A DNA stretch of 64,000 nt from an uncultured Neglectibacter sp. Lineage in GTDB: Bacteria; Bacillota; Clostridia; Oscillospirales; Acutalibacteraceae. Both the position numbers and the translations under genes were made by a program. How positions within the stretch are numbered: the stretch's first letter is position 1; the number at the start of each line of letters is the position of its first letter. Positions 8,323 to 22,646 of this stretch are shown piece by piece. The notes under the pieces were generated by a model. That model did not search any database, was not told the origin of the DNA, and saw only the letters and a list, made by a program, of their open reading frames with translations. The DNA is taken from the NCBI GenBank assembly GCA_946554335.1, contig CAMNSA010000008.1, positions 1-64,000 on the forward strand. The letters are read 5' to 3'.

Positions 8323-8362
8323 GGGAATAGACACCATTTGCATGATAATGCTGAGTTTAACC

Positions 8363-8641
8363 GGCGGCTTACTGAGTTCTAGAAGTCAGCTGGACGTTGA
8401 AGACTATCCCCGCATTTTGAAAGCTGCTGGAATTAAGCAAAAAGGACTGCACAGCCTGCGGCATACCTTCGCCACCAGACTGGTCAACGGAGCAAAGCAA
8501 ACCGATGGCAGTATCAGGAGCCTAACCCCTCGGCAGGTGGCGGACTTGCTGGGACACAGCACCAGCCAGATCACCGAAATGTACTACGTCAAGAAGGATA
8601 CCCAGCGGCTGAACGGGATCACAGCCGGATTCAACCTGTGA
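8363..8641 (+). pseudogene. Tyrosine recombinase (integrase) C-terminal fragment, left copy
   Basis: Only the C-terminal catalytic part remains: the HxxR box (GLHSLRHTFATRLV), then LLGHSTSQITEMYY ending in the nucleophile region. The N-terminal and core-binding domains, and the first catalytic Arg, are absent. An in-frame ATG at 8342 is probably accidental. A homologous fragment lies at 21793-21985, and the two share a 3' flank. This one marks the left edge of the island. Confidence 0.8.
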
Positions 8642-8750
8642 GAAGCCAGATACAAAATTGATGATTTTTTGATGATAAAACAAACGGAAAGGGTACAAAC
8701 AGAACCCACCGGATACGAAAAATGGAGCAGTTTTGGAGCTTCAATCGGGG
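8436..8750 (+). repeat. Island-flanking repeat, copy A (integrase 3' end plus conserved flank)
   Basis: This stretch aligns with 21793-22109. The shared part covers the integrase C-terminus and ~100 bp beyond its stop, including a nearly identical run around TTGATGATTTTTTGATGA and the end TGGAGCTTCAATCGGGG. I judge identity at roughly three quarters by eye, so the two are related elements rather than a recent duplication. Confidence 0.7.
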
Positions 8751-9095
8751 AAAAGGGTCAAGAAGGACTCGTCTCGCCTGTCGGCTTGGGTGCAAAGCGC
8801 CTGTGGCGCTTGTCCTGCGCCGACCGAAGCGACAGCTGAGAACGGCGCTGAACGGTCGCCACAGGCGACCAGCGGTCTCGCCTAGCGGCTCGGTCGGTTC
8901 GTGGCAACGCCCCACCGGGGCGTACTCACCCCACGACACGCACCGCACAAAGCGCAGCTGTACCGCATTTTTGGGACTTTTACCCGCCGACAAAAGAAGC
9001 CAGGTATCGCAACTGCGATACCTGGCTTCTTTGGCAGTGGGCGCAAGAGAAACTGCGTGCAGTTTCTCTACGGACTCGAACCCGAAGACTTGACC
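8751..9095. repeat. Hairpin mosaic A with tRNA T-loop-like fragment
   Basis: No gene is supported here. The stretch holds short hairpins with variable stems: AAGCGCC-TGT-GGCGCTT, GGTCGCC-ACA-GGCGACC and ACGCCCC-ACC-GGGGCGT. The spacer GGCTCGGTCGGTTCG occurs near 8886. A 40-bp near-perfect palindrome lies at 8993-9032 (19-bp arms, 2-base loop), and another pair of 9-bp arms (AGAAACTGC / GCAGTTTCT) at about 9048-9067. Around 9032-9085 the minus strand shows a T-loop-like string GGGTTCGAGTCC and a terminal CCA context, as if a tRNA 3' end had been interrupted. The same motif classes recur at 22.1-22.5 and 36.8-37.3 kb. Confidence 0.6.
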
Positions 9096-9299
9096 GCTAG
9101 ATCAATGTCTTGCATGCAGGTTTTGGAGTGACTGTTGAAATTGTATGAAGCCGCATTGCACTGGGATTTTTCCGCAACATAGAGCGGTTCTAAATCTCAA
9201 AGCGCACGGCCCAAAAGCTTCTGATGCTTTATTGATGATATGCAGATTTCTAAGCCAAAGAACTATTCAAAATTTGGGACGCAGTAAATAAAGAAAAGC

Positions 9300-9680
9300 C
9301 TATTCCTTTTGGTGTGCTTTCACCCAGTCCAGGAATTCCTCAAAATCGATTTTGCCAGCGGCGACTGAAAGGATCACATCAATCAATTCCTGCTGGCTGT
9401 ATTCCAGTTCCACACCATTTAAGGCAAGGAAAATCAGCATTGCATGGGCACCAATCCGTTTGTTCCCGTCTACAAACGGGTGATTTTCCACCAGCCCATA
9501 TCCCAGACGGGCAGCTTGAGCCTGCAGGGTGGGATATAGCATTTCACCTTCGAAGGTTTGAAAGGGTGCTCCCAGTGCCGATTCCAGCAGGGAACTGTCT
9601 CGCAACCCAGACTCACCGCCAAAGGCGTCGATCAAGTCCTGGTGCAGCAGAAGGATCTGTTCTTTTGTCAGCATCTTCAT
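9300..9680 (-). CDS. doc: Death-on-curing (Doc/Fic-fold) toxin
   Basis: This 126-aa Doc-family toxin carries the Fic-type motif HPFVDGNKRIG, the active site that in Doc phosphorylates elongation factor Tu. The length matches the family. Its start overlaps the stop of the antitoxin gene by 4 bp. The pair sits at the left end of the island and could stabilise it. The catalytic His, Asp, Asn and Arg are all visible, so it is probably active. Confidence 0.92.
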   Translation of the reverse strand: MKMLTKEQILLLHQDLIDAFGGESGLRDSSLLESALGAPFQTFEGEMLYPTLQAQAARLGYGLVENHPFVDGNKRIGAHAMLIFLALNGVELEYSQQELIDVILSVAAGKIDFEEFLDWVKAHQKE

Positions 9681-9919
9681 TTTGACAATGCCTCGTATGC
9701 CTCACGGTTTTTTGCCATCAGTTTCCGGGACACAGTTAGTACATCTGCATTTTCCGCTTCAGCGTCCTGCTCCAGCCGACTGAATTCCAGAATCACATAG
9801 CGTGGGACATTGTTTTTCATGATGATCGCCGAGCCGTTTTCATCTACCAATCGGGCCACCCGAGAAAAGTTCTGGTTTGCTTCTGTGATCGGCACCATGT
9901 TCTTTGTGTTGATGGTCAT
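9677..9919 (-). CDS. phd: Phd/YefM-type antitoxin
   Basis: This 80-aa protein has the Phd/YefM N-terminal DNA-binding fold (ITEANQNFSRVARLVDENG) and a charged C-terminal tail likely to cover the toxin active site. AGGAGG precedes the ATG. It is the first gene of the pair, as in most Phd/Doc operons. A sigma-70 promoter with an overlapping inverted repeat lies directly upstream (9940-9968), consistent with autorepression. Confidence 0.92.
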   Translation of the reverse strand: MTINTKNMVPITEANQNFSRVARLVDENGSAIIMKNNVPRYVILEFSRLEQDAEAENADVLTVSRKLMAKNREAYEALSK

Positions 9920-9939
9920 AAAAATCGCCTCCTGTACTA

Positions 9940-9968
9940 TTATATCCGAATTCTAGGATAAAATCAAC
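9940..9968 (-). promoter_or_regulatory. Promoter and operator of the Phd/Doc operon
   Basis: On the minus strand, TTGATT (9968-9963), a 17-bp spacer and TATAAT (9945-9940). The inverted repeat TATCC-N8-GGATA (9944-9961) fills the spacer and touches the -10, as expected for an antitoxin operator. Confidence 0.8.
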
Positions 9969-10313
9969 CTAAAATTTGACTTTGGAGTAGCGATTGTGAC
10001 GAATGACATATTTTAAGGCACACTCAATCAATGTTATCCTCATCGCAATAAGGCAGCGTCATCTCAGTATGCTGGTCTTGCAGGCAGGTCTTACTTAGGG
10101 CGCAGCCCTAACGAGGTGTTTGCGACAGCCGGAGTAAAAACAAACTGCTCGTTAGTTAAGATAGCGCAGGCGCATACCCTCTAATCCACAACAGCACGAA
10201 AAAGCCGAAAAATGAAACCTCCATTTTAAAAAAACTATATCCTCCACTTCCTTACAGAACATTTCCGCTTCAAAACGAAACCCTGATTTTGAGGAATCAG
10301 GGTGAAAATGCAG
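9969..10313. other. Non-coding stretch upstream of the AAA+ gene
   Basis: I see no supportable gene here. There is a hairpin at about 10280-10303 (ACCCTGATT / AATCAGGGT) followed by another terminator-like hairpin at 10314. The rest is featureless to my eye. Confidence 0.4.
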
Positions 10314-10352
10314 AAACCGCCTTCTATTCGACCGGATGGAAGGCGGTTTTTA
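10314..10352 (+). terminator. Terminator-like hairpin upstream of the AAA+ gene
   Basis: AAACCGCCTTC and GAAGGCGGTTT form an 11-bp stem around a 14-base loop, followed by a T run. There is no clear gene upstream on this strand, so it may be a relic of a lost gene or may insulate the next operon. Confidence 0.65.
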
Positions 10353-10438
10353 AAATAATTAAAAAAAGAATAAGGTTTTATTATAACACGTGCTATGATA
10401 TCGCCGTAAAAAGAAATTTGCGAAGCGGAGGATGAAAT

Positions 10439-12445
10439 ATGCTGTTTTATAAAATCATTGTTACTGTCGATGGAAATGAGGCTTTACCTCATAACAGAAG
10501 TGATGCCGGATACGAATCGCTTATCAATATTCTTAACATGAAAAGCGAAGATGACTATCAGCGATGCGGTCATGCGCACTGCTTTTTTGCAACGAACATT
10601 TCTGATAAGGCAATCAGCTTTGTTGCGATATTCAAAACAAAAGTGGATACAGTATCCGAATTTGAGAATTTTATCAGACAAACAGACCTGAAAATAAAGG
10701 ACATATCGCTGGAGGAAACGCTATTAAGACAAACAAGAATTACCGCAAAATTAGCCCAGCATCGAAATCTTTTTACTGACAGCGATGCCATATTCAAAGG
10801 CTTTGGGATTAATGACTTGTATTCAGATTACAGTGAAACGTTGTTAGATGGAAACATCGCAAAAGATGACCTGATAACTAAATCAAAAGCAATGCTTCTG
10901 GAAGAAACTCTGCTTCCTGAAATCGAACGCATTTACACGGAAAGTCCGGTAAGCCGTGTAAAAGGTCATCCCGTTCATTATCTTGTCTGCTGTGATGATC
11001 GCAACAAACAAAAGGAAATTTGCCGAATTTTATTGGAAGCCCTATATGCCAATGAGAGGATTCAAAGCAAACGCATTTCCTATGTTGACTTTGATTCAAA
11101 TGACAGTTTGCCGAATCGTTCTTATGATGCGTTTTATAAAAGCTGTGAAAGCGGAACTGTAATTGTTCATTACACCCCGCTTGAAGACAGAAAAAGCAAT
11201 CGGGTAAGACCGGGTGAAAGCCTGATTGCAGACCTTTGTGACACAGCGAAGAAATACAGGAACAGCGTTTTAACGGTGTTTTGTATTCCGTCAGAATGCA
11301 GTAAAACTAAAGATTACTTTTTAGAGCAACTGATTTCACTCCCGCTGGTAGAATTATCAGAGGACAAAGCCTGCGGTGAGCGTGCAAAGGAGTACCTGAG
11401 AAATCTGGCGGAGAAATGCGATATCCGCCCGGATAAGCAGCTGTATCGTCCCCTTGAGGACGACAAAAAGCTGTATTGCGCATCTCAGTTAAGACAGATT
11501 TTTGATGAATGGTACAATCATCAGCTCCTTCATCGTGTCTATCCTCAATATGAAGCTGCGAGAATCTCAACGAGTGAGGTCATCAAGTCCAAGCCGAAAG
11601 GCAGTGCCATCGATGAACTGAATAAAATGATCGGTCTGGCAGAAGCCAAGGCCGTCATTTCCAGGGCTTTGGATTTTTACAAGGTTCAAAAACTTTATAA
11701 AGATAAGGGCCTATCGGCTGATAAGCCGGCTATGCACATGGTCTTTACCGGAAATCCCGGTACGGCAAAAACCACAGTTGCCCGCCTTTTTGCAGAAATC
11801 ATGCGTGATAACGGTCTGCTTACCAAAGGTGATTTATATGAGGTCGGAAGAGCTGATCTTGTAGGAAAGTATGTGGGATGGACAGCGCAAATCGTAAAAG
11901 ACAAGTTCAAAGAGGCGAAGGGCAGTGTGCTGTTCATAGACGAAGCCTATTCTCTTCTCGATGACAAGGATGGTTTATACGGCGACGAGGCAATTAACAC
12001 AATCGTGCAGGAAATGGAAAATAACCGAGAGAACATGATTGTAATATTTGCCGGATATCCCGACAAAATGGAGCTGTTTCTCAATCGAAATCCCGGCCTT
12101 CGGTCACGCATTGCATTCCATGTGCCGTTTCACGATTATGATACGGACGAGCTTGCGGCCATTGCGGAATTGACCGCACAGGAAATGAATCTGCATTTCA
12201 CGCCGGAATCTCATTCCAGGCTTTGCGAGATTCTTGAAGCGGCAAGAAATTCAGAAGATTTCGGCAACGGCAGATATGTCCGTAATTTGATCGAACAGGC
12301 CAGAATGGAGCAGGCAAGTCGCATTGCGCAAATGGATTACGAAGAAGTAACGAAGGAAACGCTGAACACCTTAACGGCGGAGGATATTCCCTCTTTCGGC
12401 GTGCCGCATACAGAAGAAAAGCACCGTATCGGTTTTTCCGCATAA
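10439..12445 (+). CDS. CbxX/SpoVK-type AAA+ ATPase with a large uncharacterised N-terminal region
   Basis: GGAGG precedes the ATG. Residues ~1-380 match nothing I recognise. From ~395 the protein is a CbxX/CfxQ (SpoVK-like) AAA+ module: Walker A GNPGTAKTT (~438-446), Walker B VLFIDEAY (~497-504), a sensor-1 region IVIFAGYP, and an arginine-finger region NPGLRSRIAF. These ATPases remodel protein complexes. The codon and base composition is visibly more AT-rich than the backbone, suggesting transfer. It lies 30 bp before a MoxR-type ATPase and a VWA protein, so the three likely form one operon. Exact function unknown. Confidence 0.85.
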   Translation: MLFYKIIVTVDGNEALPHNRSDAGYESLINILNMKSEDDYQRCGHAHCFFATNISDKAISFVAIFKTKVDTVSEFENFIRQTDLKIKDISLEETLLRQTRITAKLAQHRNLFTDSDAIFKGFGINDLYSDYSETLLDGNIAKDDLITKSKAMLLEETLLPEIERIYTESPVSRVKGHPVHYLVCCDDRNKQKEICRILLEALYANERIQSKRISYVDFDSNDSLPNRSYDAFYKSCESGTVIVHYTPLEDRKSNRVRPGESLIADLCDTAKKYRNSVLTVFCIPSECSKTKDYFLEQLISLPLVELSEDKACGERAKEYLRNLAEKCDIRPDKQLYRPLEDDKKLYCASQLRQIFDEWYNHQLLHRVYPQYEAARISTSEVIKSKPKGSAIDELNKMIGLAEAKAVISRALDFYKVQKLYKDKGLSADKPAMHMVFTGNPGTAKTTVARLFAEIMRDNGLLTKGDLYEVGRADLVGKYVGWTAQIVKDKFKEAKGSVLFIDEAYSLLDDKDGLYGDEAINTIVQEMENNRENMIVIFAGYPDKMELFLNRNPGLRSRIAFHVPFHDYDTDELAAIAELTAQEMNLHFTPESHSRLCEILEAARNSEDFGNGRYVRNLIEQARMEQASRIAQMDYEEVTKETLNTLTAEDIPSFGVPHTEEKHRIGFSA

Positions 12446-12474
12446 TCACCATAAAGAGAAAGGATCGCAAAAGA

Positions 12475-13476
12475 ATGGATACTAAAATTTTTGAACTGGC
12501 TGCCAAAATCCCTGTGATGCTGCTTGGGGCGCCGGGGATCGGCAAAACAGCGGCAATTACAGAATTCGCACAGAGCATCGAAGCCGATCTGATCGACATT
12601 CGCCTGACGGCGGAAACACCCAGCAGCTTTGAGGGCAAGGATTTTATCAGCCCGGAAACCGGAGACCTAAAAAAGGCCCGTGCCTGGTGGCTGCAGCGGA
12701 TCGACACGAACAGGCAGAACGATATCCCTACCGTCTTATTCTTTGACGAATACACCAATGCACCGGACGCTTTGCAGCAGCTTGCCTATTCCCCGTTCAA
12801 TGAGCGAAAGCTGCACGGCATTTCCTTTGACTATCAGCTTTCGGATCATCGGCCAGGGCTGTATGTGTTTGGCGCCGGCAACCGTGTAGAGGACGAAACT
12901 GGAGCCCGGGAAATGGTGTACGCCTCAAAAACCCGTGTATTTACCGTGGATTTTGAAATTTCAGTTAAGGAATGGATCGCCTGGGCGGGAAATAACAATA
13001 TTGATCCGAAAATTCAGGCCTTTCTCTATGCCAACCCGGACGCCCTGCTTGAAAAGCCTTCTACCGGCACGGCTTGCCCCAGAGAATGGGCGAACCTGTC
13101 TGCCGCCATAGAGCAGGGGATCCCCTATCGGGAGGCGGCTCACGGAACAATACGAGGCGCACATGAAGCAAAATTCTGCGTGTTTTATAACGACAGTACT
13201 TTGTGCCCCACCATTGAAGAGATCGTCTGCGGGCGGGCGAAGAAACCATCGGCGGTGCATTTGGCGGCTTTTACCGTAGTGCTGGCAACGGCGCTGAAGG
13301 AGCACCCGAGAATTACGCAATATTTCCCCATCGTTTATCGTTGGATTGCGAAGCAAAGCCCGGAATGTGAGATCATCTTTGCAAAATATGCTCTCGAACT
13401 GTTAGCGGAGAAGCTGGCTTATAACGGGGAATGTATGACGGTGCTCAATTCCGTTGCAAAAAAGATTGGGAGGTGA
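12475..13476 (+). CDS. MoxR-like AAA+ ATPase
   Basis: A 333-aa ATPase of the MoxR/AAA_5 type. Walker A is GAPGIGKT (~residues 17-24), Walker B with the acidic pair reads VLFFDEYTNAP (~86-96), and a sensor-1 stretch LYVFGAGN follows. MoxR proteins act as chaperones with a VWA-domain partner, and such a partner is encoded directly downstream. The stop lies just upstream of the next start, and the ribosome site of the next gene is within the end of this one. Confidence 0.88.
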   Translation: MDTKIFELAAKIPVMLLGAPGIGKTAAITEFAQSIEADLIDIRLTAETPSSFEGKDFISPETGDLKKARAWWLQRIDTNRQNDIPTVLFFDEYTNAPDALQQLAYSPFNERKLHGISFDYQLSDHRPGLYVFGAGNRVEDETGAREMVYASKTRVFTVDFEISVKEWIAWAGNNNIDPKIQAFLYANPDALLEKPSTGTACPREWANLSAAIEQGIPYREAAHGTIRGAHEAKFCVFYNDSTLCPTIEEIVCGRAKKPSAVHLAAFTVVLATALKEHPRITQYFPIVYRWIAKQSPECEIIFAKYALELLAEKLAYNGECMTVLNSVAKKIGR

Positions 13477-13483
13477 ATTCGCT

Positions 13484-14491
13484 GTGGATTTTACAAAACT
13501 CATTTGGAATGAACCCTGGCTGGCGCCGATCGTATTGAATTTTCGAAGCGTCATTGCGACAGAAAGCATTGGAACCGCAGGCGTTACCCCTGACGGAAAA
13601 AACCTGTATTACAATCCGCGTTTTTGGGCGGGCCTGAAGAAAGAGGAGCAACTGGGTGTGCAGCTCCATGAGGTTTTACATATTGCGAACCGCCACGCCG
13701 TCCGCAAAGATTACAGGACCCATTTGATTTGGAACATGGCCTGCGATATGGCTATCAATAATCAAATCACAGCCTCCGGGTACAAATTGCCTGCCGGTGT
13801 TCTGCCCGGGGTGCGGGATACAGCGGAAAACATCTATGAAGCGTTACAGAAAGAGGTGGTCGTGTACGAGGAAAAAATCCCTCTGAAGGGTGATTTGCTG
13901 GAACGCAACGCAGCCGGCAGCAAAAACTGCTGCGACAGCTCCACCATAGAAGCAGTAGAAAGTGCGGCGCAGCTTGCCGGGCAGGGCAGCAGTCCGCTTT
14001 CAAGGCAGTTTTGCCCGCAGCCGGCCAAGGCGGACTGGCGCACGATTTTACAAAACTATGTAAAAAGTTCGGTCAACGGCGAAATGGATTATCTGGGCTA
14101 TGAATTTGATGAATTCGGTATTTGCGAAGATATTCTCCTGCCAAAGCCCTATCCGAGGATCTGTGCGCTGGTAGACGAAAGCGGCAGTATTGAAGATGAA
14201 CTGTTTGCGCAGTTCTTGGGGGAACTTTCCAAAATGTCCCGCTTTGCCATGGTTTATGTTTCGGGGTTTACCAATAATACAGAGCTAAACGCTGTTCCGC
14301 TGAAAAAGTACCGCCGTACCATGACCGGCGGCACCGATGTGACACTTCCCTATCAACAGGCGTGCAAGGAAGAGTTTGACTGCATTATCATTCTGACCGA
14401 CGGATATTTGGACTTTCCCGCCGTAGAACCCAGGTCCACCATCTGGGTTATGCCGAAAAGCTTTGGAAGAAACAGGGAGGTGATTTTGTGA
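13484..14491 (+). CDS. DUF2201-type protein: HEXXH metallopeptidase-like domain plus VWA-like domain
   Basis: I chose GTG at 13484 because GGGAGGTG lies just upstream; the frame is open further 5' from a TTG at 13454 but that lies inside the preceding gene. The N-terminal domain carries the HEXXH zinc motif HEVLH (~residues 61-65) in the setting QLHEVLHIANRH. The C-terminal domain (~225-335) is VWA-like with a MIDAS-type string DESGSI (~230) and a later conserved Asp (LTDGYLDF). DUF2201 proteins pair with MoxR ATPases, as here. Whether the zinc site is a working protease is not known for the family. Confidence 0.85.
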   Translation: MDFTKLIWNEPWLAPIVLNFRSVIATESIGTAGVTPDGKNLYYNPRFWAGLKKEEQLGVQLHEVLHIANRHAVRKDYRTHLIWNMACDMAINNQITASGYKLPAGVLPGVRDTAENIYEALQKEVVVYEEKIPLKGDLLERNAAGSKNCCDSSTIEAVESAAQLAGQGSSPLSRQFCPQPAKADWRTILQNYVKSSVNGEMDYLGYEFDEFGICEDILLPKPYPRICALVDESGSIEDELFAQFLGELSKMSRFAMVYVSGFTNNTELNAVPLKKYRRTMTGGTDVTLPYQQACKEEFDCIIILTDGYLDFPAVEPRSTIWVMPKSFGRNREVIL

Positions 14492-14603
14492 GAAAACCGG
14501 GAAGCACGAAACCACAGATGATTATGCTTTTCCTCAGTCAGTAGGCTGATCTTACGGACCCGTGTCCTATAAAAAGGACATTATAATAACAAAAGTACAA
14601 AAC
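14492..14603 (+). promoter_or_regulatory. Promoter region of retron ncRNA 1
   Basis: TATAAT at 14582-14587 lies about 16 bases before the first retron repeat. No good -35 is visible. The inverted repeat TGTCCT-N6-AGGACA (14563-14580) overlaps the position of a -35/-10 spacer and could be an operator or the end of the upstream operon. Confidence 0.5.
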
Positions 14604-14744
14604 CTTGCTCTTTGCGGCAGTGTGCAGCTTAAGGCTTTCGCTTTAAGTGCGGACGGCGAGTCGCTGTCTGGAACCTGAAAATTGGCAGGTCGATCCCCTG
14701 TCGAAATTTACAACGGATTTGGAATTTGTGCCGCAAAGGGCAGG
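14604..14744 (+). ncRNA. Retron msr-msd RNA, copy 1 (upstream of the reverse transcriptase)
   Basis: The outer a1/a2 helix is 16 bp with some G-U pairs: 14604-14619 with 14729-14744, with the core CTTTGCGGCA pairing TGCCGCAAAG. Inside are two msr hairpins. One is 8 bp at 14628-14647 (CTTAAGGC with GCTTTAAG). The other carries the GCG-AGT-CGC tip at about 14652-14668. An msd-like hairpin follows (GGCAGG with CCTGTC). The layout and its position just before a retron RT fit a retron template/primer RNA. A candidate branching G lies in the CAGCTTAA string shared with copy 2; that assignment is inference. Confidence 0.85.
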
Positions 14745-14765
14745 CTTTGTGTGAAGGAGAATCGT

Positions 14766-15854
14766 ATGCGTATTACACAGGACGAGATAAAATTTGAATC
14801 CAGCGATATGGAGTTTGTGAGGAAATTCGGCTTTACAAAGGCTGCCGATATGGTGCGGGAATATACAGCGGACAATGCCACGCCTTTCCTTTACGATGCA
14901 CATCAATTGGCGCATTTTTTAGGGCTCAGTGTTCCGGATCTGTTTGCTCTGATAAAAGGCTGTTACGATTCATACAGTGCCATTTTGCTCAGAAAACCAA
15001 ACGGGAAATACCGGCAGGTCCATGCGCCTCATAAAAGATTGAAAAAATGCCAGAGAAAGATTCTGGACAAAATTCTATCCATGCTGCCTGTATCACAGTA
15101 CGCAACCGCTTATGTGGGAGGGAGCACGCTTGTGAAGAACGCTGCTCCGCATATAGGTAAGCGCTATTTGCTGAAGCTGGATATCAGCAATTTCTTTGAC
15201 AGCATTACCTTTGAACGGGTTTTCGATTCTGTATTCAGCCGCTGTTATTACAGGCAGATTGCTGTGTTCCTCACCAGGCTCTGTACCAGATACGGAGTAT
15301 TAGCACAGGGGGCGCCTACCTCTCCTGCTCTGGTGAATATTGTCATGCGGGAGTTTGACCGTGCTATGGGCCAGTGGTGTAAAAATCAGGGGATTTCTTA
15401 TACCCGCTACTGCGACGACATGACTTTTTCTTCTGATGAGCCTCTTTCCCACGTTTATCAAAAAGCGAAAACCGAGCTGGGAAAAATCGGATTTCAGCTC
15501 AATGAGAGAAAGACCCGCTTTGTAAACAGCGCATATCGGCAGAGCGTAACAGGGCTTACGGTCAATGAAAAGGTGACCGTGCAAAAGGATTATAAAAAGG
15601 CTCTCCGGCAGGAGGTGTACTATGTTTTGAAATTTGGCTTAGTGGAAAATATCCTGCGCAGGGACAAAAAAGAGTTTCTCTCGGCTGGTTTGCCTCAGGT
15701 CAAAAAGTACTATCAGAATTTGGCCGGCAAAGTTGCCTTCGTGCTGCAAATAGAGCCGGAAAACACATGGTTCAAAAATGCGTTGACCGACCTGAAAAAG
15801 AGCAGACTTTTACGGGGGGAACTGATGCTGTGGAAAGGCGCAGAAAGAACCTGA
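14766..15854 (+). CDS. Retron-type reverse transcriptase
   Basis: I chose ATG at 14766 with AAGGAGA 5 bases upstream; the frame is open earlier, but that part overlaps the msr-msd RNA. The 362-aa protein has the RT fingers/palm series: LKLDISNFFDSI (motif A Asp), AQGAPTSP (motif B), and YCDD at ~215-218 (catalytic pair). It also has two retron hallmarks, NAxxH (NAAPH, ~124-128) and VTG (~260). There is no maturase or endonuclease domain, so it is not a group II intron RT. It should prime cDNA from a guanosine 2'-OH on the adjacent ncRNA. Structured RNAs lie on both sides. Confidence 0.95.
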   Translation: MRITQDEIKFESSDMEFVRKFGFTKAADMVREYTADNATPFLYDAHQLAHFLGLSVPDLFALIKGCYDSYSAILLRKPNGKYRQVHAPHKRLKKCQRKILDKILSMLPVSQYATAYVGGSTLVKNAAPHIGKRYLLKLDISNFFDSITFERVFDSVFSRCYYRQIAVFLTRLCTRYGVLAQGAPTSPALVNIVMREFDRAMGQWCKNQGISYTRYCDDMTFSSDEPLSHVYQKAKTELGKIGFQLNERKTRFVNSAYRQSVTGLTVNEKVTVQKDYKKALRQEVYYVLKFGLVENILRRDKKEFLSAGLPQVKKYYQNLAGKVAFVLQIEPENTWFKNALTDLKKSRLLRGELMLWKGAERT

Positions 15855-15885
15855 AATACGGATCGAAGACGGGGAAGCTCTGTCC

Positions 15886-15914
15886 TTGAAAAATCCTCCC
15901 TGGTCTCGTATAAT
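15886..15914 (+). promoter_or_regulatory. Sigma-70 promoter of retron ncRNA 2
   Basis: TTGAAA (15886-15891), an exact 17-bp spacer and TATAAT (15909-15914). The predicted start (~15921) lies ~25 bases before the first repeat of ncRNA 2, so the second RNA can be made independently of the RT transcript. Confidence 0.8.
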
Positions 15915-15947
15915 CGACATAGAGCGATCATGGAAAGATAAAACTTG

Positions 15948-16097
15948 GCTCTTGCGGCAGCGTACAGCTTAAAGAATTTCTTTAAGGGGGCAGCGAGTCG
16001 CTGCTTTTATCACGAAAGTCCAGGGCGCACTTTTCTTGCGAAAAGTGCACAGCCTGCTATCGCTTCGCTTCTATCAGGAGCTTTGTGCCGCAGAGTG
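15948..16097 (+). ncRNA. Second retron msr-msd RNA (downstream of the reverse transcriptase)
   Basis: This is homologous to the RNA at 14604-14744. The a1/a2 helix pairs CTC-TTGCGGCA near 15949-15959 with TGCCGCA-GAG near 16086-16095 (one bulge). The first msr hairpin is CTTAAAG-AATTT-CTTTAAG and the second is GCAGCG-AGT-CGCTGC. Both sit at the same positions as in copy 1, with stem bases changed in pairs. The msd part differs entirely: a 9-bp hairpin GCACTTTTC / GAAAAGTGC at ~16027-16048 and a second palindromic stretch after it. It has its own promoter and precedes the PolC-like gene. Confidence 0.8.
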
Positions 16098-16159
16098 CCG
16101 GTTGGTTTTATTGGGGGGAGTAATACTGTCTTGCAAATTTTGAAAAAGGAGAATGGAAA

Positions 16160-17314
16160 ATGTTTCTCAGTGTAGAAAGACCTTTGGATAGTTCGAAAGG
16201 TGGGTATGTTTATTACAGCATCCCCACCAAGGCGGAAAATGATAAGGCCTATGATCTTGTTTCAGAGTTTTGTCAAGAGCGACTTGCACTGAAATATGGC
16301 GGTTGGAAGCACGCAGAAGACCGCCTGGCGGTTGCTCTCGATTTGATGAGGAAAACGGGCAGCGCTTTTCAGTACTTTGTTCTCAAGGAAATCTCGGAAC
16401 TGTCCAGGGAAGAAAACGGTTGGGTCTTTTGTTATGCTTCTGTATCTATTCTTGACTACCTGCTCGGCTTGACACAGGTCAACCCACTGATCCCACATTA
16501 TCACTGTCCAGCCTGTCATCACATAGAGGAAGTGGATACGGTCAATGACGGCTTTGACCTGCCGCCGAAGGCCTGCCCTGAATGCGGGGCGGATATGGAA
16601 CGGGATGGGCATAACTGCTCGGAGCACATCTGCTGGGTGAATTCCCGGGGCGATGTAAGAAGTCATTCACAGGACCTGGGTGTGACCCAGGCCGTTTTGC
16701 AAAAACTGCAAGGCCGACTGGACCGCAGGTTTCATGAGGCCTTTTCATCGAGGAGAACAGGGGAAGAAGAAATGCGTTCTATTATAGCGGGGAGATGGGA
16801 AACCAGTGAGCGGTTAAACAGACTTTTCCAAACCACTAAAATAGCGCCCCAGGACATTCCAGTGTTTGAAAAGGGCCTTTGGAACCTGATCGCCAGGGAA
16901 ACTCTCGGGGAAGTACCGGCTTTTAATGGGAAAGAACACTTTTTTGACGAAATCGAATTTCATCAGTTGAGCCGACTTTTCGGTTATCGCCACGGGGCCT
17001 TCGAAGAGAAGAAAAGACTAGAAAATTTGGAGGAAGCCCATTTTTATGCGCTACGTGATGAAATATACGATGCGCTTCTTGCAAGTGGCTTTTCCTGGGA
17101 AGAGGCCGCTTGGGCCGCACGAAGCATTTCCAATGGGAAAATGAGAGATTTTCGTATTCCTGATAGTGTGAAAGGGAATATGGAATCAATCAGGCATCTA
17201 TGGCCCAAAGGGGCATGCCTTACACGGATTTGGGATAAATATCTCTTGCTCTGGTATGAGCGCCGTTATCCCACTCAGTATGCACAAGTCTGTATCAGCT
17301 TTGATGACGAATAG
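16160..17314 (+). CDS. Small PolC-derived protein lacking the polymerase active site
   Basis: A 384-aa protein; AAGGAG lies 9 bases before the ATG. Residues ~45-70 (RLAVALDLMRKTGSAFQY) align with the start of the PolC palm. Residues ~103-150 match PolC's conserved VNPL-PHY string and its four-Cys zinc ribbon (HCPACHH ... CPECG). Residues ~310-380 match the PolC segment around the PKA...YxxxxYP motif. In PolC, the ribbon is followed by a segment ending in the catalytic PDIDLNFSG motif. Here that motif is absent, and the exonuclease and PHP parts are missing. I infer a catalytically dead polymerase relative. It follows retron ncRNA 2 by ~60 bp, so it may be the retron's effector or accessory protein; I do not know a retron class with this partner. 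Confidence 0.7.
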   Translation: MFLSVERPLDSSKGGYVYYSIPTKAENDKAYDLVSEFCQERLALKYGGWKHAEDRLAVALDLMRKTGSAFQYFVLKEISELSREENGWVFCYASVSILDYLLGLTQVNPLIPHYHCPACHHIEEVDTVNDGFDLPPKACPECGADMERDGHNCSEHICWVNSRGDVRSHSQDLGVTQAVLQKLQGRLDRRFHEAFSSRRTGEEEMRSIIAGRWETSERLNRLFQTTKIAPQDIPVFEKGLWNLIARETLGEVPAFNGKEHFFDEIEFHQLSRLFGYRHGAFEEKKRLENLEEAHFYALRDEIYDALLASGFSWEEAAWAARSISNGKMRDFRIPDSVKGNMESIRHLWPKGACLTRIWDKYLLLWYERRYPTQYAQVCISFDDE

Positions 17315-17389
17315 CACCAAATCAGGTACAGATAAGTAGTAAAATAGAATAGCATAAACCTCAAACAAATGAAAAGGAGAGTAAGAAAG

Positions 17390-18142
17390 ATGGATGAACT
17401 AAAAGCAAAAGTTGAGGAATTGGAAGCAGCAAAAGATGATGAGGAACGGATTCAAGTTTTACAGAAAATTGGTGCAAAATTGATCAATGAATATGAGATT
17501 AAGATTGGGCGTTTGACTATTAAGCCAATGCTTGTAGAAGCGTACTATTTTAGCAAAAATTTTCAAGATGATGCGGCGCATGCCGCAAATAGCAGTAAGG
17601 CGAACACTTACGAGCTCGCTCGACAGAGGCAAAAAAATCATTTTGGTGAGCTGTATATACATTATGGCACAAAAGATGGACTTGACATCGTGTTATCAGA
17701 TGGGGAAAATTATTTTTTGTCCTTCTTGATAAAAAATTCACTTGTTGAAGAAGATGGCAAATGGGAATGGAAAACGCAATGTACAGTCTCCGAAAAGCTG
17801 TGTGAAAAGTGCGATGCATATGATACGTGCGAAAAAGGGAAAAGGTGTAAATATTATGGTGTGAAAGTTTTACATAGGTTACCCGACACGAGCAAACAAG
17901 AGATTGTTTTTATACCTCGAAGGGGGATCCCTGCTGACAAAAAATATGTAAGAACGCCTCTTGCTGCTCTGCCAATTGCAGAAATCAGAAAGTATAAATT
18001 CACGCCAGGCGTAAGTTGCACAGATATTATAAGGTGCTACATAACCCAGCAGTTGAAAAACGGTGTTGATGATCAAAAATTGGAGAAACTACAAGCTCTT
18101 GCGAAAGGGTTAATTGCTTGGAAAACGTTTAAGGAGAATTAA
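17390..18142 (+). CDS. Uncharacterised protein resembling methylpurine-DNA glycosylase (AAG/Mpg), with Cys cluster
   Basis: I chose ATG at 17390, 9 bases after AAAGGAGA, over the ATG at 17369. The 250-aa product resembles AAG/Mpg glycosylases in its central motifs. VEAYYF matches the catalytic Glu and Tyr string. DDAAHA matches the base-pocket His string. GELYIHYGTKDGLDIV matches the family's 'LYVYxxYG...NI' segment. A five-Cys cluster (CEKCDAYDTCEKGKRC, ~residues 137-155) is not a feature of that family and could bind metal. The resemblance was judged by eye and could be coincidental. The gene is AT-rich and sits in the retron island, 4 bp from the next gene. Confidence 0.4.
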   Translation: MDELKAKVEELEAAKDDEERIQVLQKIGAKLINEYEIKIGRLTIKPMLVEAYYFSKNFQDDAAHAANSSKANTYELARQRQKNHFGELYIHYGTKDGLDIVLSDGENYFLSFLIKNSLVEEDGKWEWKTQCTVSEKLCEKCDAYDTCEKGKRCKYYGVKVLHRLPDTSKQEIVFIPRRGIPADKKYVRTPLAALPIAEIRKYKFTPGVSCTDIIRCYITQQLKNGVDDQKLEKLQALAKGLIAWKTFKEN

Positions 18143-18145
18143 ACT

Positions 18146-18970
18146 ATGCTCTACTTTTCCTCTCTTCTCCGCTCCCCCGAATACCAGTCCGCAGCGGAAA
18201 ACCTGTTTTCTGTCCTAAAGGCCAACGGAGTCAAATATGACCTTCTGCCCAACACTCGGGACATCTGGTTGCGGGATTTTATGCCGGTGCAGTGCCGAGA
18301 TGACAGCTTTGTTTCCTTCCGCTATGAGCCCAGCTATCTGGAAAACGACCTGCAGCTGCGGACAGATTTCCGGAATGATATGAGCGAGCGGTTTCCCTTC
18401 CCTGTTACATATTCCAATATTGTTCTCGACGGCGGGAATGTGGTGTTTTCGCCGTCAAAGGAACGGGCTATCATCAGCGACCGGGTGTTTTGGGAAAATG
18501 GCGACCGGGAAAAAGCAGCGCTTATTCGACAGTTGGAACGGGAATTGAAAGCACAGATCATCATCATTCCGTCCCTTCTCAGTGACATGACCGGTCACGC
18601 TGACGGCATGGTGCGCTTTGCCGATGATTGTACTGCGCTTGTGAACCGTACCAGTTATAAAAACGGCTTGGAACAGCGGATTCGGAAAGTGTTAGAGCAA
18701 CACGGCATCACCATTTTGGAGTTCCCCTATTTTTTCTCTGCCAGGGGCAGCGCTGTTGGCTGCTATCTGAACTTTCTGGAAACGGAGCGGCATATCTTTT
18801 TGCCGGTGTTTGATTCCCCTGCGGATGACGAAGCAGTCAAAATGGCCGAAAGGATTTTTGCCAAAACAACTGTGCCCGTCAATATCGGTGAAATCGCCCA
18901 AGCTGGCGGCTGCCTCAACTGTATCAGCTGGAAGATCGAACCCCGGGATACGGTAGAGTACCGATTGTGA
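18146..18970 (+). CDS. Agmatine deiminase / PAD-family enzyme
   Basis: This 274-aa protein is short for the family. It shows the pentein-fold catalytic series: RDIWLRDFMP (substrate Asp/Trp region, ~40-50), LDGGNVV, MTGHADGMVRF (catalytic His ~151 and Asp) and GGCLNCISW with the nucleophilic Cys ~259. It should hydrolyse the guanidino group of agmatine or a peptidyl/free arginine. The usual GGGNIHCIT string is changed to GGCLNCISW. It starts 4 bp after the previous stop, with GGAG upstream, so the two are co-transcribed. Its role in an island with a retron is unclear. Confidence 0.8.
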   Translation: MLYFSSLLRSPEYQSAAENLFSVLKANGVKYDLLPNTRDIWLRDFMPVQCRDDSFVSFRYEPSYLENDLQLRTDFRNDMSERFPFPVTYSNIVLDGGNVVFSPSKERAIISDRVFWENGDREKAALIRQLERELKAQIIIIPSLLSDMTGHADGMVRFADDCTALVNRTSYKNGLEQRIRKVLEQHGITILEFPYFFSARGSAVGCYLNFLETERHIFLPVFDSPADDEAVKMAERIFAKTTVPVNIGEIAQAGGCLNCISWKIEPRDTVEYRL

Positions 18971-19045
18971 AAGAAGAAATCTCTCATGAGGATCCGGTGG
19001 TTATTCTGCGAGTCTGGGATCAATGTCACGAAAAGGAGCAGCTCC

Positions 19046-19645
19046 ATGGAAAAGAATTTCAATTTGTATACACGTGATCGTAAAGAAATTCTCGTCACAA
19101 AAAAAGAATTGAAAGCACATCTGATGTTGCAGGAGTTTGACCTCCCAAAAGCGCTGCTTCGGCTATTAACATTGGGTAGGGACGACCCCCTCTTTCCGCA
19201 ATACCTGATAAGAGCAGCTGTCAGAATGCAATTCATTACCTCCCTTGTATATCCCGTTCGAGGGGCAGGCTGTAATTCTTGGGGAGAGCCGTATGTCACG
19301 AAACCATCCATCAAAACATACGAAATTTTGTTTGACGGATACTGCGGGAATTTGGACGAATGCGCTGACCGATTGAAAGAAATTTTTACGGGAAATAATC
19401 TCGACCAGCAGAGCTTGACGCCGGAATATATAAAAAAGGTATTTGAGAAATACAGTGCCATAAAGCGTTACACACTTCCCATGCTGGGATATCATTCCGA
19501 TGATTTCTGCCATGCCTCCTTTTTTGAATATGTCATGCTATATGTCGTAGAACATGACAGCTATCCGGATTTTCCGATCCATCATGGTTATCGCTATCCC
19601 GAAATGCCGGGCGCTTCCAATTGGGATATCGAAGATTATTTTTAA
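19046..19645 (+). CDS. Hypothetical protein
   Basis: I chose ATG at 19046 with AAAAGGAG upstream; the frame is open from 18986 but that part lacks a ribosome site. The 199-aa protein has no signal peptide or membrane segment. It is rich in aromatic residues and charged N-terminally, with a C-terminal HHGYRYPEMPG string. I recognise no family. It follows the deiminase gene by ~75 bp and is the last gene before a terminator. Confidence 0.65.
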   Translation: MEKNFNLYTRDRKEILVTKKELKAHLMLQEFDLPKALLRLLTLGRDDPLFPQYLIRAAVRMQFITSLVYPVRGAGCNSWGEPYVTKPSIKTYEILFDGYCGNLDECADRLKEIFTGNNLDQQSLTPEYIKKVFEKYSAIKRYTLPMLGYHSDDFCHASFFEYVMLYVVEHDSYPDFPIHHGYRYPEMPGASNWDIEDYF

Positions 19646-19753
19646 CACAATTTAACCAAGCGAATTTCTTCGGCAAGAAGGGTTTGTCGAAAAGCATGTG
19701 TTAATCTTTTAGTAGGTGATAACCTGTGTTCAATCAAAATCAAATGCCGATGT

Positions 19754-19791
19754 AAAAATCCGTCCATTGCAGAAGCTGGACGGATTTTTCT
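19754..19791 (+). terminator. Rho-independent terminator ending the island cargo
   Basis: AAAAATCCGTCCA and TGGACGGATTTTT form a 13-bp stem around a 10-base loop with a T run. It separates the cargo genes from the mobilization module. Confidence 0.88.
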
Positions 19792-19806
19792 TTTGAGCCA
19801 TTATGA

Positions 19807-19863
19807 TGTCATGCATGACAATTACAGTTTTCCTATTATTAACTTTCCCCTGTCACCATGACA
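19807..19863. promoter_or_regulatory. Two tandem TGTCA/TGACA operator-like palindromes
   Basis: TGTCATGCATGACA (19807-19820) and TGTCACCATGACA (19851-19863) share half-sites and are 44 bp apart. They lie ~210-265 bp upstream of the excisionase-like gene in the stretch 19792-20071, which otherwise has no gene I can support. A repressor controlling the element's excision or transfer genes is a plausible ligand. Confidence 0.5.
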
Positions 19864-20071
19864 CCCCAGTTGACAAGGGCGTTACAATGGAGTTCCAGCT
19901 AAAATTTAATGACCGTCTGAACTGAAATATCCCGCCACGACTCCTCCGAGCGGAGGGTGAGCGTTTGATGGATTGACCACCCATCGGAACAGGAATGCAC
20001 CGGCTGGAACCGGAAGCTCCCAGGAAGCAGTTTCAGGTAGAACGGCGCAAAAAATCGAAAGGAGAGAAAGA

Positions 20072-20284
20072 TTGGCCGAAGGTAAGTACAAGAATTATGA
20101 GGAACTACCTCTCTTCCTCAATGCCAAAATGATTGGTGCTGTGCTGGGAATTTCTCCGGCAAGCAGCTACGAACTGTTCCATCAAGAGGGCTTTCCCACT
20201 CTGAAAATCGGGAACCGACTGGTTGTTCCCAAGGAGAAATTCATTCAGTGGGTGGAGCAGAACACGCAGGGAGGCACCCGATAG
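20072..20284 (+). CDS. Excisionase-like helix-turn-helix protein
   Basis: A 70-residue protein starting at TTG 20072 after GAAAGGAGAG. The frame is open upstream from 19973 but without a ribosome site. The winged-helix layout reads LFLNAKMIGAVLGISPASSYELFHQEGFP (~12-40), then LKIGNRLVVPKEKFIQWV, the standard MerR/Xis-like 'excisionase family' of conjugative elements. It overlaps the next frame by ~35 bp, as is usual in such modules. It probably aids excision or regulates the element. Confidence 0.8.
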   Translation: MAEGKYKNYEELPLFLNAKMIGAVLGISPASSYELFHQEGFPTLKIGNRLVVPKEKFIQWVEQNTQGGTR

Positions 20285-20658
20285 CTTTCCAGAAATATCC
20301 AACGCTCAACCCTGACCGGGACTATTTCAAAATGCCAAATTGCCTGTTCTCGCTGGGACTTGACCCAGGAGAGATCGCTGTGTATTCCTATCTCCTCCGC
20401 TGTGAGGATCGGAAAAGTTTTACCTGCTACCCCAGCTATAGAACCATCGGCAAGGCGGTTGGGCTGAGCCGGAACACCGTTCAGAAGTATGTTTCCTGCT
20501 TGGAACATAAGGGCTTGATTGAAACTGAAAAGACTTCCGTGTTCCGCAAGGACGGCTCTAAATGGAACGGGAATCTCAAATTCATGATCCGCCCAATCCA
20601 GTCCGCGCTGGAGCTTTACAACGAACAACAGCTATTGGGCACAGGAAGGCCCACGTAA
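20248..20658 (+). CDS. Helix-turn-helix replication-type protein (HTH_36)
   Basis: The core runs from YPTLNPDRDYFKMPN through LGLDPGEIAVYSYLL to the helix-turn-helix IGKAVGLSRNTVQKYVSCLEH and a GLI wing. It is the RepA-N-like/HTH_36 type protein usually next to the excisionase gene in Clostridia mobile elements. The start is uncertain: GTG at 20248 is used here, but the family start would lie near 20281, where a GGGAGG site precedes an ATA codon. It is 136 aa from GTG. It probably acts in element replication or copy control. Confidence 0.72.
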   Translation: MGGAEHAGRHPIAFQKYPTLNPDRDYFKMPNCLFSLGLDPGEIAVYSYLLRCEDRKSFTCYPSYRTIGKAVGLSRNTVQKYVSCLEHKGLIETEKTSVFRKDGSKWNGNLKFMIRPIQSALELYNEQQLLGTGRPT

Positions 20659-20764
20659 GCAGTTTTGTTTTGCCGGTAGGGCTGGGACACCACTCAGCAG
20701 GTCAAACGGCAAATTTGAGCCGCTGTGAGAAATGGAAAAGGGAGTTAACACTGCAAGCGCAAAT

Positions 20765-20890
20765 CCCGTTTTGCAAAACCGCTATACACGGGATTCCTGC
20801 CCTAGGGCAGGGCAAGCATAGCAGACGGCTATACGCCGTCCGCCAGCCGAGTAAACTCGGCTGCCCCCCTGCCCCCCTGAAGGGGGAGTA
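20765..20890. other. Hairpin-rich stretch, candidate oriT/nic region
   Basis: The 274 bases between the HTH gene and mobC hold no gene I can support but several perfect hairpins. These are CCTGCCCTAGGGCAGG (20796-20811), GACGGC-N5-GCCGTC (20824-20840), AGCCGAG-TAAA-CTCGGCT (20845-20862) and CCCCCTGAAGGGGG at the end. A hairpin cluster directly upstream of mobC is where an oriT is expected. No nic site can be named. Confidence 0.45.
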
Positions 20891-20932
20891 GAACCTCCAT
20901 CACCAAACCAAAGAGAAAGAAGGATTGCTTAT

Positions 20933-21280
20933 TTGAAGAAAGAAAAAACAGAGATCATTACCATGCGGATCAAGCCGCAGTACAAACAGGAAATCCAACG
21001 AAAAGCAAAGCAGGCACAGCTTACGGTCACGAATTATCTCACACTGTGCGGAATGAGAAAGAAGCTCGTTCAGATCCAAGGTCTAGACGAGCTTCTGACT
21101 GAACTGAAAGCGCAGGTGCGAAATCTGAATCGGCTAACCACCCTTGCCAACAGGGCTTCAACTAGTAGTGGCGTCTTCTTCTCGTCCAATACTTGCTTTT
21201 CTTTGTTCCAAATAGGAGTTTCAGTGGCAACAATACTGGAAAAAAGCAGATTTTCAGCGCCAAATTTAGAGTGCGTTTAA
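20933..21280 (+). pseudogene. mobC: Truncated MobC-type relaxosome protein
   Basis: It starts at TTG 20933 after AAGGA. Residues 1-74 follow MobC closely (EIITMRIKPQYKQEIQRKA ... LKAQVRNLNRLTTLAN), the ribbon-helix-helix accessory protein of mobilization relaxases. From ~21155 the frame runs into unrelated sequence, and the normal C-terminal part is lost. No relaxase gene follows. The element has therefore lost the ability to mobilize itself through a deletion or replacement whose junction is near 21155-21165. Confidence 0.75.
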
Positions 21281-21308
21281 ACTCCGCACTGTCTGTATAA
21301 CTACGCAT
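21162..21308 (-). CDS. Small basic hydrophobic protein (48 aa)
   Basis: The ATG at 21308 follows AAAGGAG on the minus strand with good spacing, and the frame is open for 48 codons. The product begins MRSYTDSAEFKRTLNL, has a hydrophobic middle (CFFPVLLPLKLLF) and ends in a basic stretch (WTRRRRHY). Its stop codon falls exactly where MobC similarity ends. The gene could therefore have been cut short by the same rearrangement. No family recognised. Confidence 0.45.
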   Translation of the reverse strand: MRSYTDSAEFKRTLNLALKICFFPVLLPLKLLFGTKKSKYWTRRRRHY

Positions 21309-21342
21309 ACAAAAAACTCCTTTAGTTAAATGTTAAAGGTTT

Positions 21343-21714
21343 TTATGAGAGATGATATCTTATTTCTATGGTGGATGATTGGCCGCTTGGCGTATCGTGC
21401 AGGACCTCGTCTTCTTCTTCCATACACTGACGCATAGCATTGCAAACCATAGACATCCGACTTTTCATTTTCAAAGCCTTGTGAATGTCATTTGCCTTGA
21501 TGGTAAGGAATTCTTGACCACGTTCTCTTGCCTCACATTTCAATCTGTCAATATACTCACGTATGGCTGCTGTCGAGATTCTTTCTTTTGCTTCCTTGTT
21601 ATCGGCCTTCCCATCCGGCACACCAGTATGAACACCCTCAGATAGCACTTTAACCTGTTCTTCCAACGCTTGGATACGAGCCAGCATTTCAATAATAATG
21701 GAATCATAATTCAT
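21343..21714 (-). CDS. Hypothetical coiled-coil protein, probably an autoregulated DNA-binding protein
   Basis: A 123-aa protein with GGAGAG before its ATG. The N-terminal ~25 residues form a coiled coil (IIEMLARIQALEEQVKVL). The middle is helical and charged (ISTAAIREYIDRLKCEARERG) and the C-terminal part resembles a winged-helix tail (LKMKSRMSMVCNAMRQCMEE). A 33-bp perfect inverted repeat lies immediately upstream and would overlap its promoter. I do not recognise a named family. DNA binding is inferred from the operator and is not shown. Confidence 0.6.
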   Translation of the reverse strand: MNYDSIIIEMLARIQALEEQVKVLSEGVHTGVPDGKADNKEAKERISTAAIREYIDRLKCEARERGQEFLTIKANDIHKALKMKSRMSMVCNAMRQCMEEEDEVLHDTPSGQSSTIEIRYHLS

Positions 21715-21730
21715 TCGATTCTCTCTCCTT

Positions 21731-21763
21731 TCTAATTAGAATTCTATCAGAATTCTAATTAGA
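21731..21763. promoter_or_regulatory. 33-bp perfect inverted repeat, probable operator
   Basis: 15-bp arms (TCTAATTAGAATTCT and its complement) around ATC. Each arm contains two nested palindromes, TCTAATTAGA and AGAATTCT. It lies 17-49 bp before the ATG of the minus-strand gene at 21714. Confidence 0.7.
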
Positions 21764-21792
21764 AGTCAAGATTTTTTCAAAGCAATTTCTTT

Positions 21793-21985
21793 TCATGACT
21801 CAAGGCATACGGTTGCCACAAATCTAGTGAACGGCGTGAAGCAGGAAAATGGCAGCATTAGAAGTCTAACTCCTCGGCAGGTGGCAGACCTTTTGGGACA
21901 TTCAACTTCCCAGATCACAGAGATGTACTACGTCAAAAAAGACACCACCCGACTGAACGGAATCACAGACGGATTCAACTTATGA
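21793..21985 (+). pseudogene. Tyrosine recombinase C-terminal fragment, right copy
   Basis: Frame from ~21793 to TGA at 21985. It carries the DSRHTVATNLV box and LLGHSTSQITEMYYVKKD, homologous to the left copy. No start or N-terminal domain is present. Here the Arg-His box reads DSRHT where the left copy has LRHT. It lies between the operator-bearing gene and tRNA-Trp. Confidence 0.8.
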
Positions 21986-22109
21986 AGCCAAAAGCACGCA
22001 GGACAGCGCTCCCGGATTGATGATTTTTTGATGATAAAACAAATGGAAACAGTGCGAACAGAACCCACCGAATACGAAAAAAGGCGCAGGTTTGGAGCTT
22101 CAATCGGGG
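21793..22109 (+). repeat. Island-flanking repeat, copy B
   Basis: Counterpart of 8436-8750: the integrase 3' end plus ~100 bp of conserved non-coding flank ending TTTGGAGCTTCAATCGGGG. An insertion of ~20 bp just after the stop distinguishes it from copy A. Confidence 0.7.
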
Positions 22110-22494
22110 TGAAACAGAGCGTGGAAGAAGCGGATTCGAAGTTGCTCCGCAACCCCTCTTGCGGTGCCCGAAATTTGTGAACTGCCGTTCCAAATTTCGA
22201 CCGCTGCGCCATTCCCGCCTCGCTGTATCCGCCACTGGCGGCGCTTCGGCGGCAATGCCCGGCACGCGCGTGCCTCGGTCTCTACCCACTATCACTACAA
22301 AAAAAGACTGGAACTACAAAAGCAGTTCCAGTCTTTTTTGGCAGGGGCAGAAGGATTCCTCTCGCCTGTCGGCTCGGTCGGTTCGCACCAGAGCGCCACT
22401 GGCGCTCGCTCACCCCTCGACACGCTCCGCGTGCCGAGACCAAGCCTTTTTACCGTAAAAAATGGGAGAGAAGCAAACGCTTCTCTCCCATTTT
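22110..22494. repeat. Hairpin mosaic B beside tRNA-Trp
   Basis: No gene is supported. It includes GTTGC-TCC-GCAAC, CCGCC-ACT-GGCGG, GAGCGCC-ACT-GGCGCTC, CACGC-TCC-GCGTG and the spacer GGCTCGGTCGGTTCG at ~22374. It also has two long terminator-like hairpins: one with GACTGGAACT arms at 22302-22338, and one of 17 bp at 22458-22495. The motif types match mosaics A and C. Confidence 0.6.
22339..22358 (-). repeat. Copy of the tRNA-Trp 3' end, probable attachment-site repeat
   Basis: 20 bases identical to the last 20 bases of tRNA-Trp (22495-22514), including the CCA, 156 bp away. Both copies are preceded on the plus strand by a T run from a long hairpin. A duplicated tRNA 3' end beside integrase remnants is the usual mark of integration at a tRNA gene. 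Confidence 0.7.
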
Positions 22495-22495
22495 T
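22458..22495 (-). terminator. Terminator of tRNA-Trp
   Basis: A 17-bp perfect stem (arm GGGAGAGAAGC plus an A/T end) with AAAC loop directly abuts the CCA end of tRNA-Trp. It ends in a T run on the minus strand. Confidence 0.8.
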
Positions 22496-22570
22496 GGCAG
22501 GGGCAGAAGGATTCGAACCCTCGGCACGCGGTTTTGGAGACCGCTGCTCTACCAGCTGAGCTATACCCCT
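22495..22570 (-). tRNA. trnW: tRNA-Trp (anticodon CCA)
   Basis: A full 76-nt cloverleaf on the minus strand with encoded CCA. The acceptor is AGGGGTA, the anticodon stem GCGGT/ACCGC holds loop CTCCAAA, and the T-loop string is GGGTTCGAATCC. It is the likely integration site of the island. Confidence 0.95.
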
Positions 22571-22646
22571 ATCTGAAATTTATCGCCTGATTATCTTAGC
22601 ATTTTCTGATAGGGATGTCAAGTTTTGAAATGAAAAAACAATTTGC

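Follow-up and report, generated by a model that had tools for sequence, protein, structure and literature searches.

Retrons are usually described as combinations of one reverse transcriptase (RT), one RNA and one effector. The retron RT, for which VTG is one of the recognised motifs, binds the msr scaffold of its RNA, primes from the 2'-OH of the G that follows the a1 strand, and copies the msd portion towards the msr. Retron-Eco5 (Ec107) has one msr-msd RNA, whereas two are found at the locus considered here, which lies in a 64,000-nucleotide stretch of an uncultured Neglectibacter sp. (contig CAMNSA010000008.1, positions 1 to 64,000; this whole stretch is called the window below) and consists of a single RT gene with a related but different msr-msd RNA on either side (Table 1). 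On balance we believe it to be an Ec107-like retron whose one RT serves both RNAs as templates, making two different multicopy single-stranded DNAs (msDNAs). As given in PMC6868368, the active site of RT-Eco5 is YCDD, as in the window RT, and NAxxH (region X) is a retron RT motif; the same review describes Retron-Nex1 (Ne160), with duplicated msr-msd repeats and no RT within a kilobase, so that multiplicity of msr-msd RNAs is not unheard of. The Nex1 repeats have no RT close by, in contrast to the two divergent copies around one intact RT in the window, and in the literature searched, mostly papers available without subscription, no other case came near this arrangement and none matched it.

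Table 1. Positions of the retron components and of neighbouring features in the window (R2, covariance model built from relatives only; fold z, from comparison with shuffled sequences)
Feature	Position	Strand	Evidence
Upstream retron RNA (msr-msd copy 1)	14603-14745	+	R2 61.4 bits, E 9.1e-14; fold z -4.65
Retron RT	14766-15854	+	362 aa + stop, intact; PADLOC RT_Ec107-like E 6.4e-109; Pfam RVT_1; alignment of 20 RTs
Promoter-like TTGAAA-17-TATAAT before downstream RNA	15886-15914	+	11 of 12 matches
Downstream retron RNA (msr-msd copy 2)	15944-16102	+	R2 76.5 bits, E 1.2e-17; fold z -3.51
384-aa ORF	16160-17314	+	NCBIfam PolC E 4.9e-19, residues 51-152; local match, 67.4 bits against a cut-off of 873
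PAD-like protein (agmatine/peptidyl-arginine deiminase family)	18146-18970	+	Pfam PAD_porph E 1.5e-20

One reverse transcriptase and two retron RNAs

The RT gene, with AGGAG ahead of its ATG, lies exactly where a preliminary description of this DNA had placed it, and the NAxxH, YCDD and VTG motifs claimed there are in place (as NAAPH, YCDD and VTG) in the alignment of 20 RTs. The RT_Ec107-like profile of PADLOC scores highest, at 362 bits; the likeness to Retron-Eco5, drawn at the level of the RT, consists of this profile together with the NAxxH and VTG motifs. The RTs of type III-A retrons come next (301 bits, E 2.8e-90). Such retrons, according to PMC12548924, comprise a phosphoribosyltransferase and a DNA-binding partner; no phosphoribosyltransferase match was found with Pfam in the RT and its seven neighbours (10439-19642). 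With NCBIfam NF038233 (Retron St85 family) the window RT reaches 228.4 bits, just under the cut-off of 235, and in an RT tree of 23 rows it stands at an open fork. Three other assignments were rejected on their curated cut-offs: Drt2 (58.9 against 390), Drt3a (43.6 against 200) and AbiA (16.3 against 250). Across the whole genome (2.53 Mb, 37 contigs), searched at E up to 0.001, this RT has a single match.

The two structured RNAs are also where they had first been seen, each a few bases longer than described. Both form a long closed helix with several hairpins and can be aligned with each other, and the shared outer helix with TTGCGGCA/TGCCGCA and the GCG-AGT-CGC tip, noted from the start, are present in both. 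The upstream copy is made up of a 16-bp outer helix (a1/a2), a probable priming G after a1, a first hairpin, a second hairpin with GCGAGTCGC, and a short, atypical msd, and it ends 20 bases before the RT, as is usual in relatives. The downstream copy has the same core. As judged by eye on the folds, it also has a GC-rich third hairpin, absent from the upstream copy, and CCTG...CAGG arms without the distal hairpin of the family. The G directly after a1 is invariant in the family and is found in both copies, and the conserved TTTGT beside a2 is kept in the downstream one.

Of particular weight is the covariance model R2, which was built from 13 relatives with the window copies excluded to avoid circularity. 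In a search of 24 sources (382 kb) it matched both window copies over its full length, with E-values that are rough by the tool's own account. Because a model made without them gives the two copies 61.4 and 76.5 bits, their homology to the family exceeds chance. A covariance search had been proposed as a way of recognising a downstream copy devoid of retron structure, and it is the downstream copy that scores the higher of the two. Folding energy alone is modest evidence for either RNA: none of 200 shuffles folded as well as the upstream copy and 1 of 200 as well as the downstream one, while among 600 random 150-base stretches of the window 2% and 4.8%, respectively, folded equally well per base. 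The downstream structure might accordingly be taken for a chance hairpin or a terminator, its energy per base being in the window's top 5% and not extreme, were it not for the 76.5 bits (E 1.2e-17) from a model that had never seen it, and we give that idea practically no credence. Rfam, at gathering scores, contains no match to either RNA (window positions 8000-24000).

The structure of the family itself was examined on an alignment (A5) of 23 RNAs, comprising the matches with E up to 1e-6 in 22 sources; L001, L003, L060-L063 and others that match less well are outside it. In A5, 96.2% of cells are paired and 28 of the 34 pairs show two-sided change; the covariation score is 0.597, compared with 0.215 for shuffled alignments (none of 500 reached the family score) and no more than 0.185 for slid versions, figures to be read in the light of A5 having been fitted to the model, so that it leans towards the structure. 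Together R2, the covariation of the family and the RT motifs support what the preliminary description had proposed, a retron with two homologous msr-msd RNAs around one RT. Judged by the features tested, the locus is a retron, one that departs from the usual single-RNA state.

A conserved recognition part and a diverged copied part

In the a1/msr/a2 region 28 positions are at least 90% conserved among 21 relatives, and each window copy keeps 26 of them; relatives left out and put through the same test kept 22-28 of 28-29. At variable columns agreement with the majority is looser (56 of 104 upstream, 71 of 124 downstream), and the copies are 69% identical to each other over 105 msr and a2 columns. 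That each retains 26 of the 28 positions at this level of identity indicates that the part which the RT is expected to recognise is maintained in both, and that the two did not arise by recent duplication. Of the 34 base pairs of the family structure, 12 fall on a gap in one copy or both, which leaves 22 that can be compared; 21 of the 22 form in both, 16 of them with identical bases, 3 with two-sided compensated differences and 2 with one-sided tolerated ones. The msd is another matter: the upstream copy keeps none of its six conserved positions and the downstream copy two, and with both msd portions so divergent the predicted msDNAs would differ from each other as well as from the family type.

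The same contrast appears beside the single-RNA relatives G132/L046, G122/L044 and G1036/L085, which have RTs 52-58% identical to that of the window, the same RNA scaffold, and the RNA 20-27 bases before the RT; each has one RNA with a long msd hairpin, which both window copies lack. Short RNAs also occur in two loci with one RNA, L048 (G013; 149 bases) and L002 (Flintibacter muris; 157 bases), the other 20 loci listed having 179-214 bases, so that an msd of reduced length is seen outside the window too.

The proposed scheme follows from analogy with described retrons. Both RNAs fold into the msr scaffold of the family, with the long a1/a2 helix, an A/T-rich hairpin and a hairpin bearing the invariant GCGAGTCGC tip, and the RT would bind either of them through it. 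The invariant G just after a1 is probably the base for 2'-5' priming; from its 2'-OH the RT would copy the 3' part of the RNA (msd) towards the msr, and the outcome would be two msDNAs of different sequence and shape. The first template would be transcribed ahead of the RT, the second possibly from a promoter of its own. Since related but different RNAs flank one RT, the bacterium may make two small DNAs with a single enzyme. Binding, priming, synthesis of complementary DNA and a role in phage defence are all things that we infer for this locus from retrons at large. A more specific form of the proposal, a dual-template retron with separately transcribed, dedicated RNAs that share their recognition parts and have diverged in their copied parts, yielding two msDNAs with different jobs (sensing two phage triggers, for example, or acting as one sensor and one regulator), we put forward tentatively, as somewhat short of an even bet. 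The reason for having two RNAs could possibly lie in separate triggers, or in dosage under separate control.

A conserved recognition part next to a diverged copied part, and a promoter-like site of its own, would also fit a downstream RNA that binds the RT and is no template, but as a decoy or regulator sets how much RT is free or how much msDNA the upstream RNA yields. Such an RNA would have had little call to keep the G after a1 and the TTTGT beside a2, which a template probably needs, and we find the decoy improbable.

Copy number among relatives

Relatives were collected with RT searches at E up to 1e-40 in the order (18 of 394 genomes) and the family (22 of 300) and at E up to 1e-75 in the class (4 of 391), sets that overlap and that each include the window's own genome; a scan of named genomes gave 4 relatives. 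R1, the first of the RNA models and one that has the window copies among its sequences, was applied at E 0.01 to 34 other RT-bearing genomes, 30 of which matched, with one copy each. A direct search of the RT loci of the remaining four gave 41.7 bits in one (L021, in G022) and 20.9-21.8 bits in the rest. Within the genus the RNA model matches 2 of 29 genomes, namely G1036, with a single copy, and that of the window, with two; within the family it matches 20 of 398, of which 19 have a single copy and the window's genome again two, and G1067, G1086 and G1136 are new among them. In total one copy was found in each of the 34 other genomes with a match, and two in the window's genome only, in keeping with the early remark that a two-RNA architecture would be unusual, a remark that left the repeats of Retron-Nex1 unmentioned.

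These counts come from searches in which a limited number of first-look candidates was scored (at most 74 per genome in the 34-genome R1 search, 6 in the family and 150 in the window genome), so that a weak second copy could have been missed. With filters off, a search of the window locus and 17 relative ones, most of them with no more than 1.5 kb of flank, found nothing above 22 bits besides the known copies. The best extra match, of 21.9 bits in L009, lies antisense within the known copy, and L026 has one of 17 bits at another place. The model searches were preferred to an inverted-repeat scan, which cannot exclude second copies since it missed the downstream copy of the window, whose outer helix is bulged. 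As for placement, the RNA lies on the same strand as the RT in 22 of 22 relative loci and ends 6-36 bases ahead of the RT start in 20 of them, the exceptions being L058, where an extrapolated start gives -38, and L060, where the best RT is a second one further on. In L060 (G145:C26:158000-177000) two related RTs lie about 4 kb apart, and stop codons interrupt the one next to the family-type RNA; upstream of the other G145 RT there is only a very weak RNA match (L016, 13.7 bits).

The most serious rival makes one copy a remnant. In that case the downstream RNA might be left over from a second, neighbouring retron after loss of its RT or replacement of that RT by the 384-aa ORF, or might be an old, disused duplicate, and one RNA only would give msDNA. 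A frame that is not an RT does begin 57 bases past the downstream RNA, where relatives have theirs; the downstream msr resembles those of L045, L044, L051 and L054 (identities of 0.74, 0.73, 0.72 and 0.70) slightly more than that of the upstream copy (0.69); and the two neighbouring RTs of G145, one of them with internal stops, offer a parallel. Taken as a set, the msr identities do not clearly pair the two copies. A remnant is less easily reconciled with a recognition part kept by both copies to the same degree as in most relatives, with an outer helix that still forms in both, or with the single RT match in the genome and the lack of a Pfam RT domain in the ORF after the downstream copy. We consider it unlikely, yet it stays a serious rival, one genome being the sole known case of two copies.

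That restriction to one genome also weighs against two working templates, since selection on having both cannot be shown from it, and several further points do the same. The conserved inner msd hairpin of the family is absent from both copies, which could mean reduced function; one outer-helix pair that forms in the upstream copy is broken in the downstream one, which also lacks one base; and the compensated differences from copy to copy number just 3, as noted above. The downstream RNA had been credited with its own TTGAAA-17-TATAAT promoter, of which the sequence is certainly present; as a promoter it is only suggestive, because the scan found 2 such sites where 2.5 were expected by chance. 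The preliminary description had moreover set out what would speak against it, a second RNA absent from relatives together with msDNA made from one RNA only. The first half of that outcome was seen: a second copy turned up in none of the relatives, which leaves the presence of two without cross-species conservation. What carries the two-template proposal is the homology and structure of both RNAs, conserved where the RT would recognise them and diverged where it would copy them, in an arrangement with no second case among the genomes searched.

Further afield, a Leminorella locus (L001) with an RT 41% identical has a weak RNA match (24.3 bits, E 0.0024). A scan of viral contigs with the RT confirmed no relative and one with the msr pattern gave nothing, while with the RT alignment 68 distant loci were found, their best segments 21-53% identical. 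Plasmids contained no DNA match, and the 140 plasmid records that match the RT are all below 60% identity. Among 33 phage records matching the RT, a 4.7-kb faecal scaffold comes closest (50.6%), and it has its one RNA at the usual position.

The surrounding island and the meaning of two templates

The retron lies inside an island of about 13.3 kb between direct repeats (8460-8750 and 21804-22109, 75-90% identity), with a tRNA-Trp near the right repeat and, at the left one, an ORF that locally and weakly resembles the C-termini of tyrosine recombinases (E about 1e-5); the island looks like an integrated element. The genes upstream encode an AAA ATPase, a MoxR-like ATPase and a VWA/DUF2201 protein; downstream come the 384-aa ORF with its PolC-like zinc finger, a 257-aa protein and the PAD-like protein. 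A palindrome, GTCCT-ATAAAA-AGGAC (14564-14579), followed by TATAAT, was seen by eye just ahead of the upstream RNA, and neither of the two signal scans lists it; it may be an operator, or else the VWA gene may terminate there.

Some of these surroundings are seen again at the RTs of L044, L045, L047, L048, L060, L063 and L085, and a 15.6-kb contig of G157 (L162) has similar AAA, MoxR-like, 257-aa and PAD genes and neither RT nor RNA. By blastp clustering of 24 neighbourhoods only the RT recurs in most of them, so that no obligate effector is visible; PAD, WYL, MoxR, VWA and the 257-aa protein recur in some. The PAD-like gene, 2.3 kb from the RT in the window, was found in 4 of 30 RT-bearing genomes (G145, G013, G082 and G343, of three families; 30 of the 38 known were taken, 8 being left out), each time 0.6-6.4 kb from the RT. 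The gene is rare in the family, with a background of 5 of 200 genomes, including the window's own and the RT-bearing G145, and three further genomes carry the gene with no such RT in the stretch examined. The PAD-like protein is possibly a retron partner, or may merely share the island.

The 384-aa ORF, with likeness to the PolC zinc-finger region over residues about 30-154, found no support as an effector: it has no relative in the 23 other neighbourhoods compared, and although 169 of 200 family genomes match it at E 1e-8, the matches listed are mostly of the zinc-finger stretch within open frames of more than 1,000 residues, as PolC itself would be. A free-standing protein carrying a piece of PolC beside a retron is odd.

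Should the two-template proposal be correct, a single RT can keep two templates in use, and the locus would show which part of the RNA the RT requires, being conserved in both copies, and which may freely diverge. It would then offer a built-in test of what the sequence of an msDNA is for, and, with the msd hairpin of the family absent from both copies, the role of that hairpin would become testable as well. For genome editing, it would provide a natural design for obtaining two DNA products from one RT.

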